Below are positions 6,852 to 18,240 of a stretch of 64,000 nucleotides of DNA, one piece after another. The notes beneath the pieces are model-generated. The model was given only the letters and a program-made list of their open reading frames with translations, had not been told where the DNA came from and searched no databases. This DNA is from Pandoraea anhela. Lineage in GTDB: Bacteria; Pseudomonadota; Gammaproteobacteria; Burkholderiales; Burkholderiaceae. Location of the stretch: NCBI RefSeq assembly GCF_902459655.1, contig NZ_CABPSB010000007.1:186001-250000 (forward strand), read 5' to 3'. Positions within the stretch are counted from its first letter, which is position 1. Each line of letters starts with the position of its first letter. A program made the position numbers and the translations under genes.

Positions 6852-6878
6852 ACACCTGTCCATTAGTTGTACAGGTGT
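6852..6878. promoter_or_regulatory. Palindromic operator, upstream activator site for the pvf-like operon
   Basis: Perfect inverted repeat ACACCTGT-N11-ACAGGTGT. The identical arms and spacing recur at 18115-18141 before the phosphopantetheinyl transferase gene. Its centre lies about 85 bases upstream of the GG of a consensus sigma54 promoter, the usual placement of an enhancer site. The obvious candidate binder is the Fis-type activator encoded at 15599-16702; that link is inference. Confidence 0.8.
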
Positions 6879-6948
6879 CATTGCAGCGAACGTCCGCCGG
6901 TCGGCGAAAAATCCATTTGATTGTCGAGATTCTTGCGTTTCGAGACGC

Positions 6949-6964
6949 TGGCATCGAACTTGCT
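6949..6964 (+). promoter_or_regulatory. Sigma54 (-24/-12) promoter of the pvf-like operon
   Basis: TGGCAT-CGAAC-TTGCT matches the sigma54 consensus TGGCAC-N5-TTGCW, with the GG and GC doublets at the required spacing (6950-6951 and 6962-6963). Transcription is predicted to start near 6975, leaving a leader of about 75 bases before the first gene. Confidence 0.8.
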
Positions 6965-7051
6965 GATCCCTGTGGGCGACGACGTGAAAGTCGCGCCGCA
7001 CTCCCCCTCGCACAGGTTGATTTCCATTTCGTTATCACAAGGATGCCTATC

Positions 7052-7837
7052 GTGGACAAGATCGAACATCTCGAACGTCAGATCAAGGAACATCACGCGA
7101 CGCTTGCACACCACCCCGTTTTCCACTCCATCGAATCGATGCAGGGCTTGCAGACGTTCATGGAATGGCATGTCTTCGCGGTCTGGGATTTCATGTCGCT
7201 GGTCAAGCGCCTCCAGGCCGATCTCACGACAATCACGCTGCCGTGGATCGCGCCGCGCAACATTCACGCTGCGCGTCTGATCAACGAGATCGTCCTCGGC
7301 GAGGAGTGCGACGAGACGCCGCAAGGGCCGAGGAGCCATTTCGATCTGTACCTTGCCGCGATGCGCGACGTGGGCGCCGATACGCGTCAGATCGAGAAGC
7401 TCATCGACCTGCTGGTCAAAGGACACAGCGTGAGTGCGGCGCTCGCCGCCGTCGAAGCGCCCGCCCCCGTGCTTCGATTCGTCAACTCGACCTTCGCCAC
7501 CTGCTACGAAGGCAAAACGCATCAGGTGCTCGGCAACTTCTTCTACGGTCGGGAGAACGTGATTCCCGACATGTTCCGCACGCTGCTCGACGGCTGGCAG
7601 ATCGATCCGAAGCGCGTGCCGCTGCTCACTTTCTATCTCGAACGTCACATCGAGGTCGACTCCGGCGAACACGGACCGGCCGCGCGCGCCATGATCGTGG
7701 AGGCTGCGCACAACGACGAGCGCCTGCTCGTCGAAGCGCTGGAGGCTGGTCTGCGCGCCATCGACGAACGCCTGCGTCTGTGGGACGGCCTGCACGAGCA
7801 CATCGTCGCGACGCAAAAGGAAGCCGTCGCCGCGTAA
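7052..7837 (+). CDS. pvfA: PvfA/MgoB-like haem-oxygenase-fold diiron protein (DUF3050 type)
   Basis: Predicted cytosolic oxygenase or accessory protein of the haem-oxygenase-like diiron family, first gene of a pvfABCD/mgoBCAD-like operon. Family hallmarks are visible: [17 protein letters not shown] near the N-terminus, [20 protein letters not shown], and [10 protein letters not shown] towards the C-terminus, supplying His and Glu residues in the pattern expected for metal binding. GTG at 7052 is preferred because AAGGA ends 8 bases before it; the ATG at 7043 touches that same ribosome site and would add three residues. In Pseudomonas relatives this gene accompanies synthesis of diazeniumdiolate/pyrazine N-oxide signals; its exact step is not settled as far as I know. 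Confidence 0.85.
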
Positions 7838-7934
7838 CCCGCGACGGGCGGGACGGGAACGATGGACACGCCCATCGTCCTCCCGTCCTCACGCCGAATG
7901 CTCTCTGCCGTCCCCCATCTACCGAGGCAACGCC

Positions 7935-8858
7935 ATGTCATTGCAGAGTTACGTCAGCCACGCTGACCAATGGGAACAACGCGCCACGATCCGCTCGCGA
8001 CCGCGCCGCATCGTCGAAGACGACGATCTGAGCTACTACCCCGTCGAGCGCCAGCCGCTGTACGCGCATCCCGCCGTGATCGACGCCGGTCGCGACGTGC
8101 AGGACTACATCCTGCTGCAAAGCTTCTACAAGTACATCAACGACGTCATCATCTTCGAGACGGAAATCGTCAACCGCACGGCGCTGGCGATCGCTAAGTC
8201 GCGCTTCCCGTTCACGTTTCCGTTCGCGTGCCGCAGCGACGCCATGTCGGTCGTGATCGACGAGAACTACCACGCGTATGTCGCGATGGACTACCTCGAT
8301 CAGGTCGAGCGCAGCACCGGCATCGGCCCCATCGAGCAGAACAAGGAAATCGAACTCTCGCGCGCGATTCCCCGCGCCATGGCGTACGTGCCGCCGCAGT
8401 ACGCCGCCGGCATGGAATTGCTCGGCGTCGCCATTTCGGAGAACACCGTGACCGCAGAAGTCGCCGCCTTCTCGCGCGACGCCACGCTCAAACGCTCGGT
8501 CAAGGGGGTGATGGCCGATCATCTGGCGGATGAAGGCCGTCATTCGGTCTTCTGGATCAATCTGGTCAAGCTGTACTGGTCCGAGATCGACGAGACGGCC
8601 CGCGTCGAACTCGGCAAGGGGCTGCCGTTCTTCCTGCGCGAGTACCTCACCAACGAGCTTCAGCTCGAATTCGACCGGCGCCTGATCGGCACGCTCGATC
8701 TGCCCGCCGCGACGCGCGAACAGATCGCCAACGACATGGTCGGCGCGTATCCGATCACGAATCAGCACCCGATGATCGTCAACATCCGCAAGTTCTTGAA
8801 GATGGCCGGCCTGCTCGACCACGAGCCCACGCGCGCAGCCATCGCGCAATACCTGTGA
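7935..8858 (+). CDS. pvfB: PvfB/MgoC-like diiron N-oxygenase (AurF family)
   Basis: Diiron oxygenase of 307 residues related to the p-aminobenzoate N-oxygenase AurF. In relatives it oxidises the nitrogen of an amino acid or its carrier-bound form during diazeniumdiolate/pyrazine N-oxide synthesis. The whole ligand set can be read with AurF-like spacing: Glu75 (FETEI), Glu110 and His113 (DENYH), Glu169 (SENTV), His196, Glu200 and His203 (DHLADEGRH). GAGG lies 7 bases before the ATG. It sits 97 bases after the pvfA-like gene and 10 bases before the synthetase gene, whose ribosome site overlaps its stop region (TGAGGA). Confidence 0.9.
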   Translation: MSLQSYVSHADQWEQRATIRSRPRRIVEDDDLSYYPVERQPLYAHPAVIDAGRDVQDYILLQSFYKYINDVIIFETEIVNRTALAIAKSRFPFTFPFACRSDAMSVVIDENYHAYVAMDYLDQVERSTGIGPIEQNKEIELSRAIPRAMAYVPPQYAAGMELLGVAISENTVTAEVAAFSRDATLKRSVKGVMADHLADEGRHSVFWINLVKLYWSEIDETARVELGKGLPFFLREYLTNELQLEFDRRLIGTLDLPAATREQIANDMVGAYPITNQHPMIVNIRKFLKMAGLLDHEPTRAAIAQYL

Positions 8859-8868
8859 GGAACGAGTC

Positions 8869-16702: not shown

Positions 16703-16746
16703 ACGAATCGACGGGCGGTATGGCTTGCCGCCCGCCATGCTCGTTC
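16701..16746. terminator. Hairpin between convergent genes
   Basis: CGGGCGG-N9-CCGCCCG (16712-16718 / 16728-16734) is nested inside an outer GAACGA/TCGTTC pair (16701-16706 / 16741-16746). It lies between the sigma54 activator stop and the converging aldo/keto reductase stop. No T-run follows on either strand, so it is only a candidate terminator. Confidence 0.4.
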
Positions 16747-16817
16747 AACGTGTCTCTCTTGCCTTCTCCTGTCTGTCCCGCATCGCCGGCGCTATGGTGG
16801 ATCTTTATGGTGGATCT

Positions 16818-17816
16818 CTATGCCGGATCTGCCAGCAGCGCCATCATCGCCGTGGCCTTGTAGCGGGCACCGGTTGTCGCCCCGGCCCCGAAATGCGCTT
16901 CGAGTGCGCGCGACATGGCGGGATCGATGGGCACGCTCGTGGCGCCGAGGTTTTCTTCCAGACGGCTCACGCGCCGCGTGCCGGGAATCGGCACGATATC
17001 GTCGCCGCGCGAGAGCAGCCACGCGAGAGCGAGTTGCGCGGGCGTCACGCCGATTTGCGCGGCGTAGCGCGCGAGCGTTTCGGCCAGTTTCACGTTGGCG
17101 TCATAGTTCTCGCCTTGCACACGCGGATCGGACGTGCGGCGCGAATCGCCTTCCGGGAAGTCCTCCGCACGTCGCGCGGTGCCGGTGAGAAAACCGCGTC
17201 CGAGCGGCGCGAACGGTACGAGTCCCACGCCCAGTTCGCGAAGACAGGGCAGAATCGACGCTTCGAGATCGCGATGCCAGAGCGAGTATTCGCTTTGCAG
17301 CGCGCTCACCGGATGCACCGCGTGCGCGCGGCGAATCGTTCGCTCCCCCGCTTCCGATAGCCCGAAGTAACGTACCTTGCCCGCTTTCACAAGGTCGCCG
17401 ACCGTACCCGCGACGTCTTCGATCGGCACATTGGGATCGACGCGGTGCTGATAGAGCAAATCGATGTAGTCCGTCCCCAACCTGGCGAGACTGGCGTCGA
17501 CGACCTCCCGGATATGCGACGGCCGGCTATCGGCACCGGTCACGACACCGTTCTCGAAACGGAATCCGAATTTGGTCGCGATGATCGCCTTGTCCCGACG
17601 GCCCTTGAGCACGCGACCGAGCAACCGCTCGTTCTCGAACGGCCCGTACACCTCGGCCGTATCGAAGAAATTGCACCCCATCGCCATCGCCCGTTCCAAC
17701 ACGCGAACCGACTCGGTGTCGTCGGCAGGCCCGTAGGCATAGCTCATGCCCATGCAACCGAGTCCAATAGCGGGGACTTCCAATCCCTGATTCCCTAGCC
17801 GGCGTGTTGGCAGCAT
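16818..17816 (-). CDS. Aldo/keto reductase
   Basis: NADPH-dependent aldo/keto reductase of 332 residues (AKR13/YhdN-like group). Motifs: [13 protein letters not shown], catalytic Asp/Tyr in [14 protein letters not shown], the catalytic Lys in IATKFGFRF, His in LYQHRVDP, and C-terminal cofactor segment [16 protein letters not shown]. The start at 17816 has AGGAG about 8 bases upstream on the coding strand. It points away from the phosphopantetheinyl transferase gene and shares with it a 478-base gap that holds the palindrome and sigma54 site, although the sigma54 site faces the other way. It could reduce an aldehyde released by the synthetase, but no direct evidence supports this. Confidence 0.92.
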
Positions 17817-18114
17817 CGCAAAACTCCTGAGGTGTGGTCGTGGGTCCGGCATCGCATGAACGGCACACGGGCGACACCGGTACGTCGTCATGGCTATGCA
17901 AGTTTCGAACCATTGGCGCGCGATCCGTCCCGGCGTTGGCGTCTCTGCGACGTTGCGAGCGACGCAACCGTCTCACAACCCGCATGCCTGCACGTGATGA
18001 ATTCGCCTGCGGTTTTTTCGCGCGGCGCGAGCTGTCGCGCAAACCGCGCCCGGATCGACGCGCTGTCGACGAGTCCGGCATGACACAGCTGTGACACAGC
18101 TGTCCGAGGCTGCG

Positions 18115-18141
18115 ACACCTGTCGCACGCTGCTACAGGTGT
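18115..18141. promoter_or_regulatory. Second copy of the palindromic operator, before the phosphopantetheinyl transferase gene
   Basis: ACACCTGT-N11-ACAGGTGT, identical in both arms and spacer length to the site at 6852-6878; the 11 spacer bases differ, so this is not a recent duplication of the region. Its centre is about 98 bases before the GG of the downstream -24/-12 promoter. Two direct copies of GACACAGCTGT (18082-18092 and 18093-18103) just upstream may be weaker related sites. Confidence 0.8.
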
Positions 18142-18224
18142 CCGCGCGCACGAGCCATTGGCGAACAAAAGAGGGAGTCGTGAGAAATACTCGAGAAATT
18201 CGTGAGACATCGTTATTTTTATGA

Positions 18225-18240
18225 TGGCATCCAAATTGCT
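18225..18240 (+). promoter_or_regulatory. Sigma54 (-24/-12) promoter of the phosphopantetheinyl transferase gene
   Basis: TGGCAT-CCAAA-TTGCT has the same -24 hexamer and spacing as the pvf-like promoter, with GG at 18226-18227 and GC at 18238-18239. Predicted transcript start is near 18251. This rules out start codons upstream of that point for the next gene. Confidence 0.8.

Follow-up and report, generated by a model that had tools for sequence, protein, structure and literature searches.

How is a biosynthetic cluster of the ham/pvf type controlled in Pandoraea? The question is raised by a stretch of 64,000 nucleotides of Pandoraea anhela (RefSeq assembly GCF_902459655.1, contig NZ_CABPSB010000007.1, positions 186,001 to 250,000; hereafter the window), which carries a ham operon encoding a nonribosomal peptide synthetase (NRPS) and, further along, a gene for a phosphopantetheinyl transferase (PPTase). 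An earlier note on this DNA had claimed that the two operons share a palindrome and a sigma54 promoter, and that they form a dedicated circuit with the activator gene lying between them. This central claim is partly supported: it survives a wide comparative test on sequences, with corrections to the unit of the operator, to the privacy of the module, and to the top of the circuit, where a LysR-type regulator probably stands. We consider it likely that a cascade leading from this LysR to the activator, and from the activator to sigma54, controls the ham operon and the PPTase gene. The regulatory features of the two promoter regions are the following.

6852..6878, + strand: predicted upstream activator site of the ham operon, with ACASSTGT cores at 6852-6859 and 6871-6878 (19 bp spacing)
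6949..6964, + strand: sigma54-type -24/-12 promoter TGGCATCGAACTTGCT of the ham operon
18085..18092, + strand: extra ACAGCTGT core
18096..18103, + strand: extra ACAGCTGT core, 19 bp 5' of the PPTase palindrome
18111..18126, + strand: perfect 16-bp operator TGCGACACCTGTCGCA, including the left arm of the PPTase palindrome
18115..18141, + strand: predicted upstream activator site of the PPTase gene (second palindrome)
18225..18240, + strand: sigma54-type -24/-12 promoter TGGCATCCAAATTGCT of the PPTase gene

The palindrome ACACCTGT-N11-ACAGGTGT is indeed found at both places, with identical arms and 11-base spacers. The two -24/-12 elements are the sole matches to TGGCAY-N5-TTGCW on either strand of the 64 kb, and the genome has rpoN. 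The promoters do follow the palindromes, but the distance of 85-98 bases given previously was loose and mixed reference points: the promoter T lies 97 (ham) and 110 bases (PPTase) from the start of the palindrome, and about 70 and 83 bases from its end. Allowing up to three mismatches, there are 3 matches to the palindrome in the window against 0.10 expected from shuffled sequences, the third (18096-18122) overlapping the second palindrome and including an extra core. The six ACASSTGT octamers of the window are all within the ham and PPTase promoters. The genome-wide scan that the note had proposed finds the perfect palindrome in exactly two places among 6,046,012 bases. Two further matches have 3 mismatches each; since the reversed control pattern gives 8 matches at this threshold, against 4 for the palindrome, only perfect matches are informative at the scale of the genome. 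Across 398 genomes of the family, the perfect palindrome (N11-N13) occurs in 23, every one of them Pandoraea; the reversed control gives no match (0/398). With two perfect copies in the genome and this empty control, we rejected a chance origin. A class-wide search matched one of 369 genomes, our own.

The distribution of the palindrome within Pandoraea follows that of the cluster. The AurF-type gene is present in 21 of the 32 Pandoraea genomes (ham+), and the palindrome (N11, at most 1 mismatch) occurs in all 21 and in none of the 11 others (ham-). The same is true of the activator orthologue (82-93% identity; 21/21 and 0/11). Four ham- genomes have one unrelated match with two mismatches, and two (G023 and G025) have a perfect palindrome with N13 adjoining a paralogue of the activator. 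The PPTase gene is found in 20 of the 32 genomes, all of them ham+; the remaining ham+ genome is 89% complete and its contig stops short of the PPTase place. At the ham operon, all 21 loci have the palindrome with at most 1 mismatch, 94-99 bp from a -24 element that reads TGGCAY in 13 and TGGTAT in 8. Among the 20 loci reaching the PPTase region, 18 carry the palindrome with no more than 1 mismatch and the other 2 with 2 mismatches, and the TGGCAY element is always present. There, the distance from operator to promoter is 67 bp (2 loci), 87-89 bp (9), 99-100 bp (5), or 109-110 bp (4). In alignments, cores and promoters are near-invariant, while the intervening and upstream DNA is variable, most of all at PPTase. 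We left out weak AurF matches of 28-32% identity (G143, G059, and the second gene of G337), excluded L073 (50% AurF, no hamA found) and L045 from the promoter counts, and counted once the named loci L029-L044, which coincide with loci under G handles. In one genome (G018:C1:1165847-1168489, L054), extra DNA places the ham palindrome about 2.6 kb from the AurF gene, against about 1.1 kb in the window.

Beyond Pandoraea, close AurF loci were found in 5 of 144 genomes of one neighbouring genus and in one genome of another. Five of these six loci, from two genera, have the LysR and the activator (64-67%), and all five show TGGCAY before hamA with an ACASSTGT core 94-98 bp upstream. The sixth (L076) and four Burkholderia-type loci have no activator, and no sigma54 element or core within 400 bp. 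A block, AATATGAGNATGTCCG, is shared upstream of hamA by L069-L072 and L076, and is a candidate site for another regulator. In the five activator-bearing loci, a PCC-domain operon lies between the LysR and the aminotransferase genes. A -24/-12 element precedes this operon, with a similar site 96-99 bp upstream of it; the arrangement is full in four loci and degenerate in one. The four pair the exact core either with a one-mismatch core spaced by N13 or simply with a core that has one mismatch, whereas L068 has a degenerate partner and a degenerate -24 element. As a side observation, this PCC/DUF296-domain operon replaces PPTase as the second target (L066:11957, L067:11932, L074:11578, L075:11653, and L068:11493 on the minus strand). 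The PCC pair of L074, the sole pair tested, has one protein over the Pfam cut-off and one under.

What is the unit that these promoters share? The palindrome is better read as two adjacent copies of a self-symmetric operator with core ACASSTGT and putative full form TGCGACASSTGTCGCA, because of several features of its arms and cores. The arms differ at two central bases only, and in the PPTase palindrome of two genomes both arms have the same orientation. Many PPTase promoters of relatives have a third similar core 19 bp upstream, in the same register. At another locus, where the activator paralogue adjoins TRAP transporter genes, the core sits inside TGCGACA-SS-TGTCGCA. Finally, four sites in the genome match the 16-mer with at most 1 mismatch, of which three belong to the TRAP locus and the other to PPTase. 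With two mismatches the reversed control has 21 matches against 17 for the pattern in all, so that only close matches are informative. We rejected a single 27-bp operator, which fits neither the same-orientation PPTase arms of the two genomes nor the core repeats at about 30-34 bp of the TRAP locus. Of the 26 ham promoters, 25 contain the octamer, in 44 copies against 0.24 expected from first-order resampling; the exception is L054, with none inside 330 bp since its promoter lies further away. The octamer is also in 20/20 PPTase, 5/5 PCC, and 23/23 acyl-CoA-ligase/TRAP regions, the latter representing 23 of 26 loci (L082 and L094 are incomplete and L102 has a different gene order).

Which protein would bind this operator, and what would control it in turn? 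Between the two operons lie two divergent regulatory genes.

14490..15404, - strand: LysR-type regulator with HTH_1 and substrate-binding domains, divergent to the activator gene
15442..15456, + strand: LysR-type box ATAGCGAACCGGTAT (ATAC-N7-GTAT, 1 mismatch), its centre 64.5 bp 5' of the assumed activator transcript start
15478..15507, + strand: predicted sigma70 promoter of the activator gene, TTGGAG-N18-TATGCT, at offset 73 of the intergenic region that begins at 15405
15599..16702, + strand: sigma54 activator, an enhancer-binding protein by its domains (AAA+, GAFSGA loop, Fis-type helix-turn-helix, HTH)

The open reading frame described for the activator, from the ATG at 15599 to the stop ending at 16702, stands, as do its AAA+ and Fis-type domains (PF00158, E 1.8e-62, for the sigma54-interaction domain; PF02954, E 4.6e-11, for the C-terminal HTH). 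GETGTGKE and GAFSGA are present in all 49 proteins of both activator paralogue groups, a serine replacing the usual threonine of the loop. A domain scan found no N-terminal sensor, and no receiver or GAF domain; the AAA+ domain starts near residue 30, which leaves no room for a sensor. The protein reaches none of the NCBIfam equivalog cut-offs of named families of enhancer-binding proteins (NtrC, PspF, NifA, ZraR, LuxO, and others): its best score, for NtrC, is 272.3 bits against a cut-off of 558.6, and for PspF it is 205.8 against 443.55. Among solved structures, the protein is matched best by ZraR, FleQ, NtrC, NifA, and PspF. The activator shares with NtrC and NifA types the AAA+ and Fis-type HTH domains, and the geometry of its predicted sites is alike, since those regulators use dyads of 16-17 bp about 100 bp upstream of -24/-12 promoters. 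It differs from them in having no receiver or GAF domain found, in its predicted operator TGCGACASSTGTCGCA, and in an apparent control at the level of expression by the divergent LysR. In consisting only of AAA+ and HTH it resembles PspF and HrpR/HrpS, which are activators without an N-terminal sensor. These are controlled by PspA or HrpV, whereas control by the divergent LysR is probable here.

The intergenic region points to such control. LysR recognition sites classically lie near -65. With at most one mismatch, ATAC-N7-GTAT is present in 26/26 LysR-activator intergenic regions of the ham type and in 18/18 of the paralogous type (exact in 5 and 18, respectively), and in 44/44 regions the box is centred 64.5 bp 5' of the start, at one fixed distance from a predicted sigma70 promoter (TTGGA...TATNCT); the regions are related and hence not 44 independent cases. 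The start was assumed to be 7 bases past the predicted -10, and the paralogue regions counted are from 18 of 23 loci (four with a gap of at most 18 bases and L102 being out). Conversely, the box is absent, at the same threshold, from the ham, PPTase, PCC, and TRAP promoter regions examined, and ACASSTGT is absent from the 26 ham-type and 18 paralogue intergenic regions. The view of the adjacent Fis-type activator as controller of the circuit is thus kept in part: it is the most likely binder of the operator, and the LysR, which the note did not mention, is its probable upstream controller.

The module is not private to the ham cluster: in the same genome, a TRAP/acyl-CoA-ligase locus has a paralogous pair of LysR and activator genes, together with the same operator. 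Hence, the shared site and promoter at the two operons stand, and a strictly dedicated circuit does not. The activator paralogue is present in 30 of the 32 Pandoraea genomes, and 10 of the 11 ham- genomes have only this paralogue (55-61%). A divergent LysR gene adjoins it in all 22 fetched Pandoraea loci, 21 of which have divergent sigma54-type elements, one towards the acyl-CoA ligase and the other towards a TRAP/SDR operon (the 22nd is without the region). The DNA separating the two promoters holds two or three ACASSTGT cores in 21/21 loci, at varying distances from them (99 to 341 bp). The two activators have nearly identical HTH cores and the same operator. Trees of the LysR and of the activator (each with 22 of 49 rows) both split the ham from the TRAP type with full support, with a very long branch for L102. 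Control of acyl-CoA-ligase/TRAP genes is perhaps the older role of the module. In three of the four loci that were extended (L099-L101), acyl-CoA-ligase and TRAP genes lie directly past the aldo/keto reductase gene, and L100 also has a sigma54 element with an operator-like pair (one mismatch) 99 bp upstream of it. The fourth, in a non-Pandoraea genome (G266, L102:8396-10504), carries a further, diverged LysR-activator pair there, immediately in front of the TRAP genes. The TRAP locus of our genome has its sigma54-type promoters at L077:3631 and 4143 (contig C10), and the other 20 Pandoraea loci with such promoters are among L078-L098.

The elements, their conservation, their co-occurrence, and their spacing are read directly from the genomes, and from them we infer the pairing of proteins with sites, the direction of control, and the dependence on sigma54. 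In the cascade that we propose, the LysR (14490-15404) would bind the ATAC-N7-GTAT box at 15442 and activate the divergent enhancer-binding-protein gene from its sigma70 promoter. Once made, the enhancer-binding protein would bind the ACASSTGT / TGCGACASSTGTCGCA dyads about 100 bp upstream of the two -24/-12 promoters and remodel the sigma54 polymerase at both. The NRPS operon and the PPTase able to arm its carrier domain would thus be switched on together. Several observations weigh against this cascade. The 16-bp operator has weak flanks at the ham promoter, whose element is TGGTAT instead of TGGCAY in 8 of 21 Pandoraea. In the other genera the half-sites are more loosely arranged, and each of the five PCC promoters has just one exact ACASSTGT. 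For the PPTase, successive distances differ by nearly integral helical turns (R 0.96, with p about 0.005), but this test relied on four classes grouped post hoc, and some of the ham distances (94-99) are out of phase (R 0.56 over distinct values). Counts are not independent, given the relatedness of the genomes. The paralogous activator could bind too. Finally, the LysR and the activator occur together in all 26 loci, and gene distribution alone cannot separate them.

An alternative is that the LysR, and not the activator, binds the ACACCTGT palindrome, with the activator working elsewhere. The LysR is present in all 26 activator-bearing ham loci (21/21 in Pandoraea and 5/5 in other genera), and the inner bases of the palindrome, T-N11-A, have the spacing of a generic LysR box. 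Still, the ATAC box and ACASSTGT have opposite distributions, the former in the 44 LysR-activator regions and the latter in the ham, PPTase, PCC, and TRAP promoters, and a sigma54 promoter requires an enhancer-binding protein. We rejected the LysR as a likely binder of the palindrome and regard this explanation as improbable. About as improbable is that a repressor, or another factor that has nothing to do with the activator, binds the palindrome, and that activation of the sigma54 promoters does not need this site. The wide range of distances between core and promoter at the TRAP locus, for either promoter, would fit such a site. Yet the cores are upstream of the -24/-12 element, not over it, at the ham, PPTase, and PCC promoters, and the perfect palindrome is restricted, among the 398 family genomes, to the 21 ham+ Pandoraea and to two genomes where it lies (with N13) beside the paralogous activator.

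It is somewhat unlikely that the circuit is shared to the point that the ham and PPTase promoters also respond to the activator of the TRAP locus, acting by itself or in mixed hexamers, in which case expression would follow the TRAP-locus signal too. The nearly identical HTH core, the 16-bp operator common to both loci, and the three relatives where the ham-type pair adjoins acyl-CoA-ligase and TRAP genes are in favour of this idea, which is partly compatible with the proposed cascade. But the ham+ genomes all retain their own activator (21/21), and the operators are arranged differently at the ham and TRAP loci.

The genes that this cascade would control, and their neighbours, are the following.

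7043..7837, + strand: hamA/pvfA-type gene, DUF3050, haem-oxygenase-like (PF11251, E 6.4e-84)
7935..8858, + strand: AurF-type diiron N-oxygenase, hamC/pvfB (PF11583)
8869..12492, + strand: NRPS with adenylation, carrier, and reductase domains, hamD/pvfC/mgoA
12559..13050, + strand: polyketide-cyclase-like (SRPBCC) protein, hamE/pvfD
13245..14444, + strand: pyridoxal phosphate-dependent aminotransferase, probably the last gene of the operon, present in 21/21 Pandoraea loci
16818..17891, - strand: aldo/keto reductase, a neighbour kept in 21/21 Pandoraea loci
18295..19140, + strand: PPTase (PF01648, 29.9 bits, cut-off 25)

The window thus has the ham/pvf/mgo order of genes: DUF3050, AurF-type oxygenase, NRPS with adenylation, carrier, and reductase domains, and SRPBCC protein. 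The corresponding order in pseudomonads is mgoBCAD or pvfABCD. The cluster is predicted to produce a small diffusible signal molecule. The NRPS is 79-92% identical to those of Pandoraea records, 64% to that of Paraburkholderia phenoliruptrix, and 56% to that of Burkholderia cenocepacia. The PPTase has the Sfp-type domain, and would serve this NRPS; it is not the only one in the genome, since two further members of the family are encoded elsewhere. Judging from the alignment, its start is probably the ATG at 18295, not the one at 18274. Directly 5' of the ham operon (3125-6738) are open reading frames resembling an ABC transporter (ATPase, binding protein, and permease).

Homologous clusters are known in other genera. 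In B. cenocepacia, whose biosynthetic genes are homologous to those of the Pandoraea cluster, positive autoregulation of ham (valdiazen/fragin) by its product was shown in the part of the study available to us (PMC5878181). The four Burkholderia-type ham loci have no activator, sigma54 element, or operator core, unlike Pandoraea. The same study (Jenul et al. 2018, PMC5878181) describes a LysR, a Fis regulator, and an aldo/keto reductase as conserved beside the Pandoraea ham clusters; in the accessible portion of its text, RpoN, palindromes, and enhancers are absent and sigma54 appears in a reference only. It also states that the mgo/pvf operons produce an extracellular signal (PMC5878181). The operon is homologous to the mgo of Pseudomonas syringae and the pvf of Pseudomonas entomophila. 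According to the excerpts available, the mgo transcript start mapped by 5' RACE in P. syringae has sigma70-type boxes (PMC3298696), and mgo transcription drops in a gacA mutant (PMC3945005). The contrast with GacS/GacA control in pseudomonads, raised in the note, therefore holds, and the sigma70 promoter of P. syringae implies that its wiring differs from that of the sigma54-type promoters of Pandoraea. Among the matches listed in the non-subscription literature, there was no report of a sigma54 ham circuit in Pandoraea.

Could the cluster be controlled by its own product? Valdiazen autoinduction is described in the available parts of Jenul et al. and of a 2026 review (PMC12838280), and the consulted sections of these texts and of the mgo and pvf papers name no regulator that perceives the signal. 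We put forward tentatively, as a rather doubtful idea, that the ham-linked LysR is the receptor of the diazeniumdiolate-type signal of its own cluster, and would, once bound to this signal, turn on the sensorless activator and, through it, synthesis and carrier priming. If true, this would be a positive loop of the quorum type, acting via sigma54 and delayed by two steps; in relatives the loop would also drive the neighbouring TRAP uptake system.

These results suggest that genera differ in how they wire one and the same biosynthetic cluster, with sigma70 and Gac in P. syringae and a sigma54 module in Pandoraea, and that the latter is shared with, or was recruited from, the TRAP/acyl-CoA-ligase locus. 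The locus offers named candidates for regulators (the LysR and the activator), exact predicted binding sites, and two promoters for reporters, while an NRPS and a PPTase under one predicted operator make a clear functional prediction. The Pandoraea locus hence provides a concrete handle on how clusters producing signal molecules are controlled.

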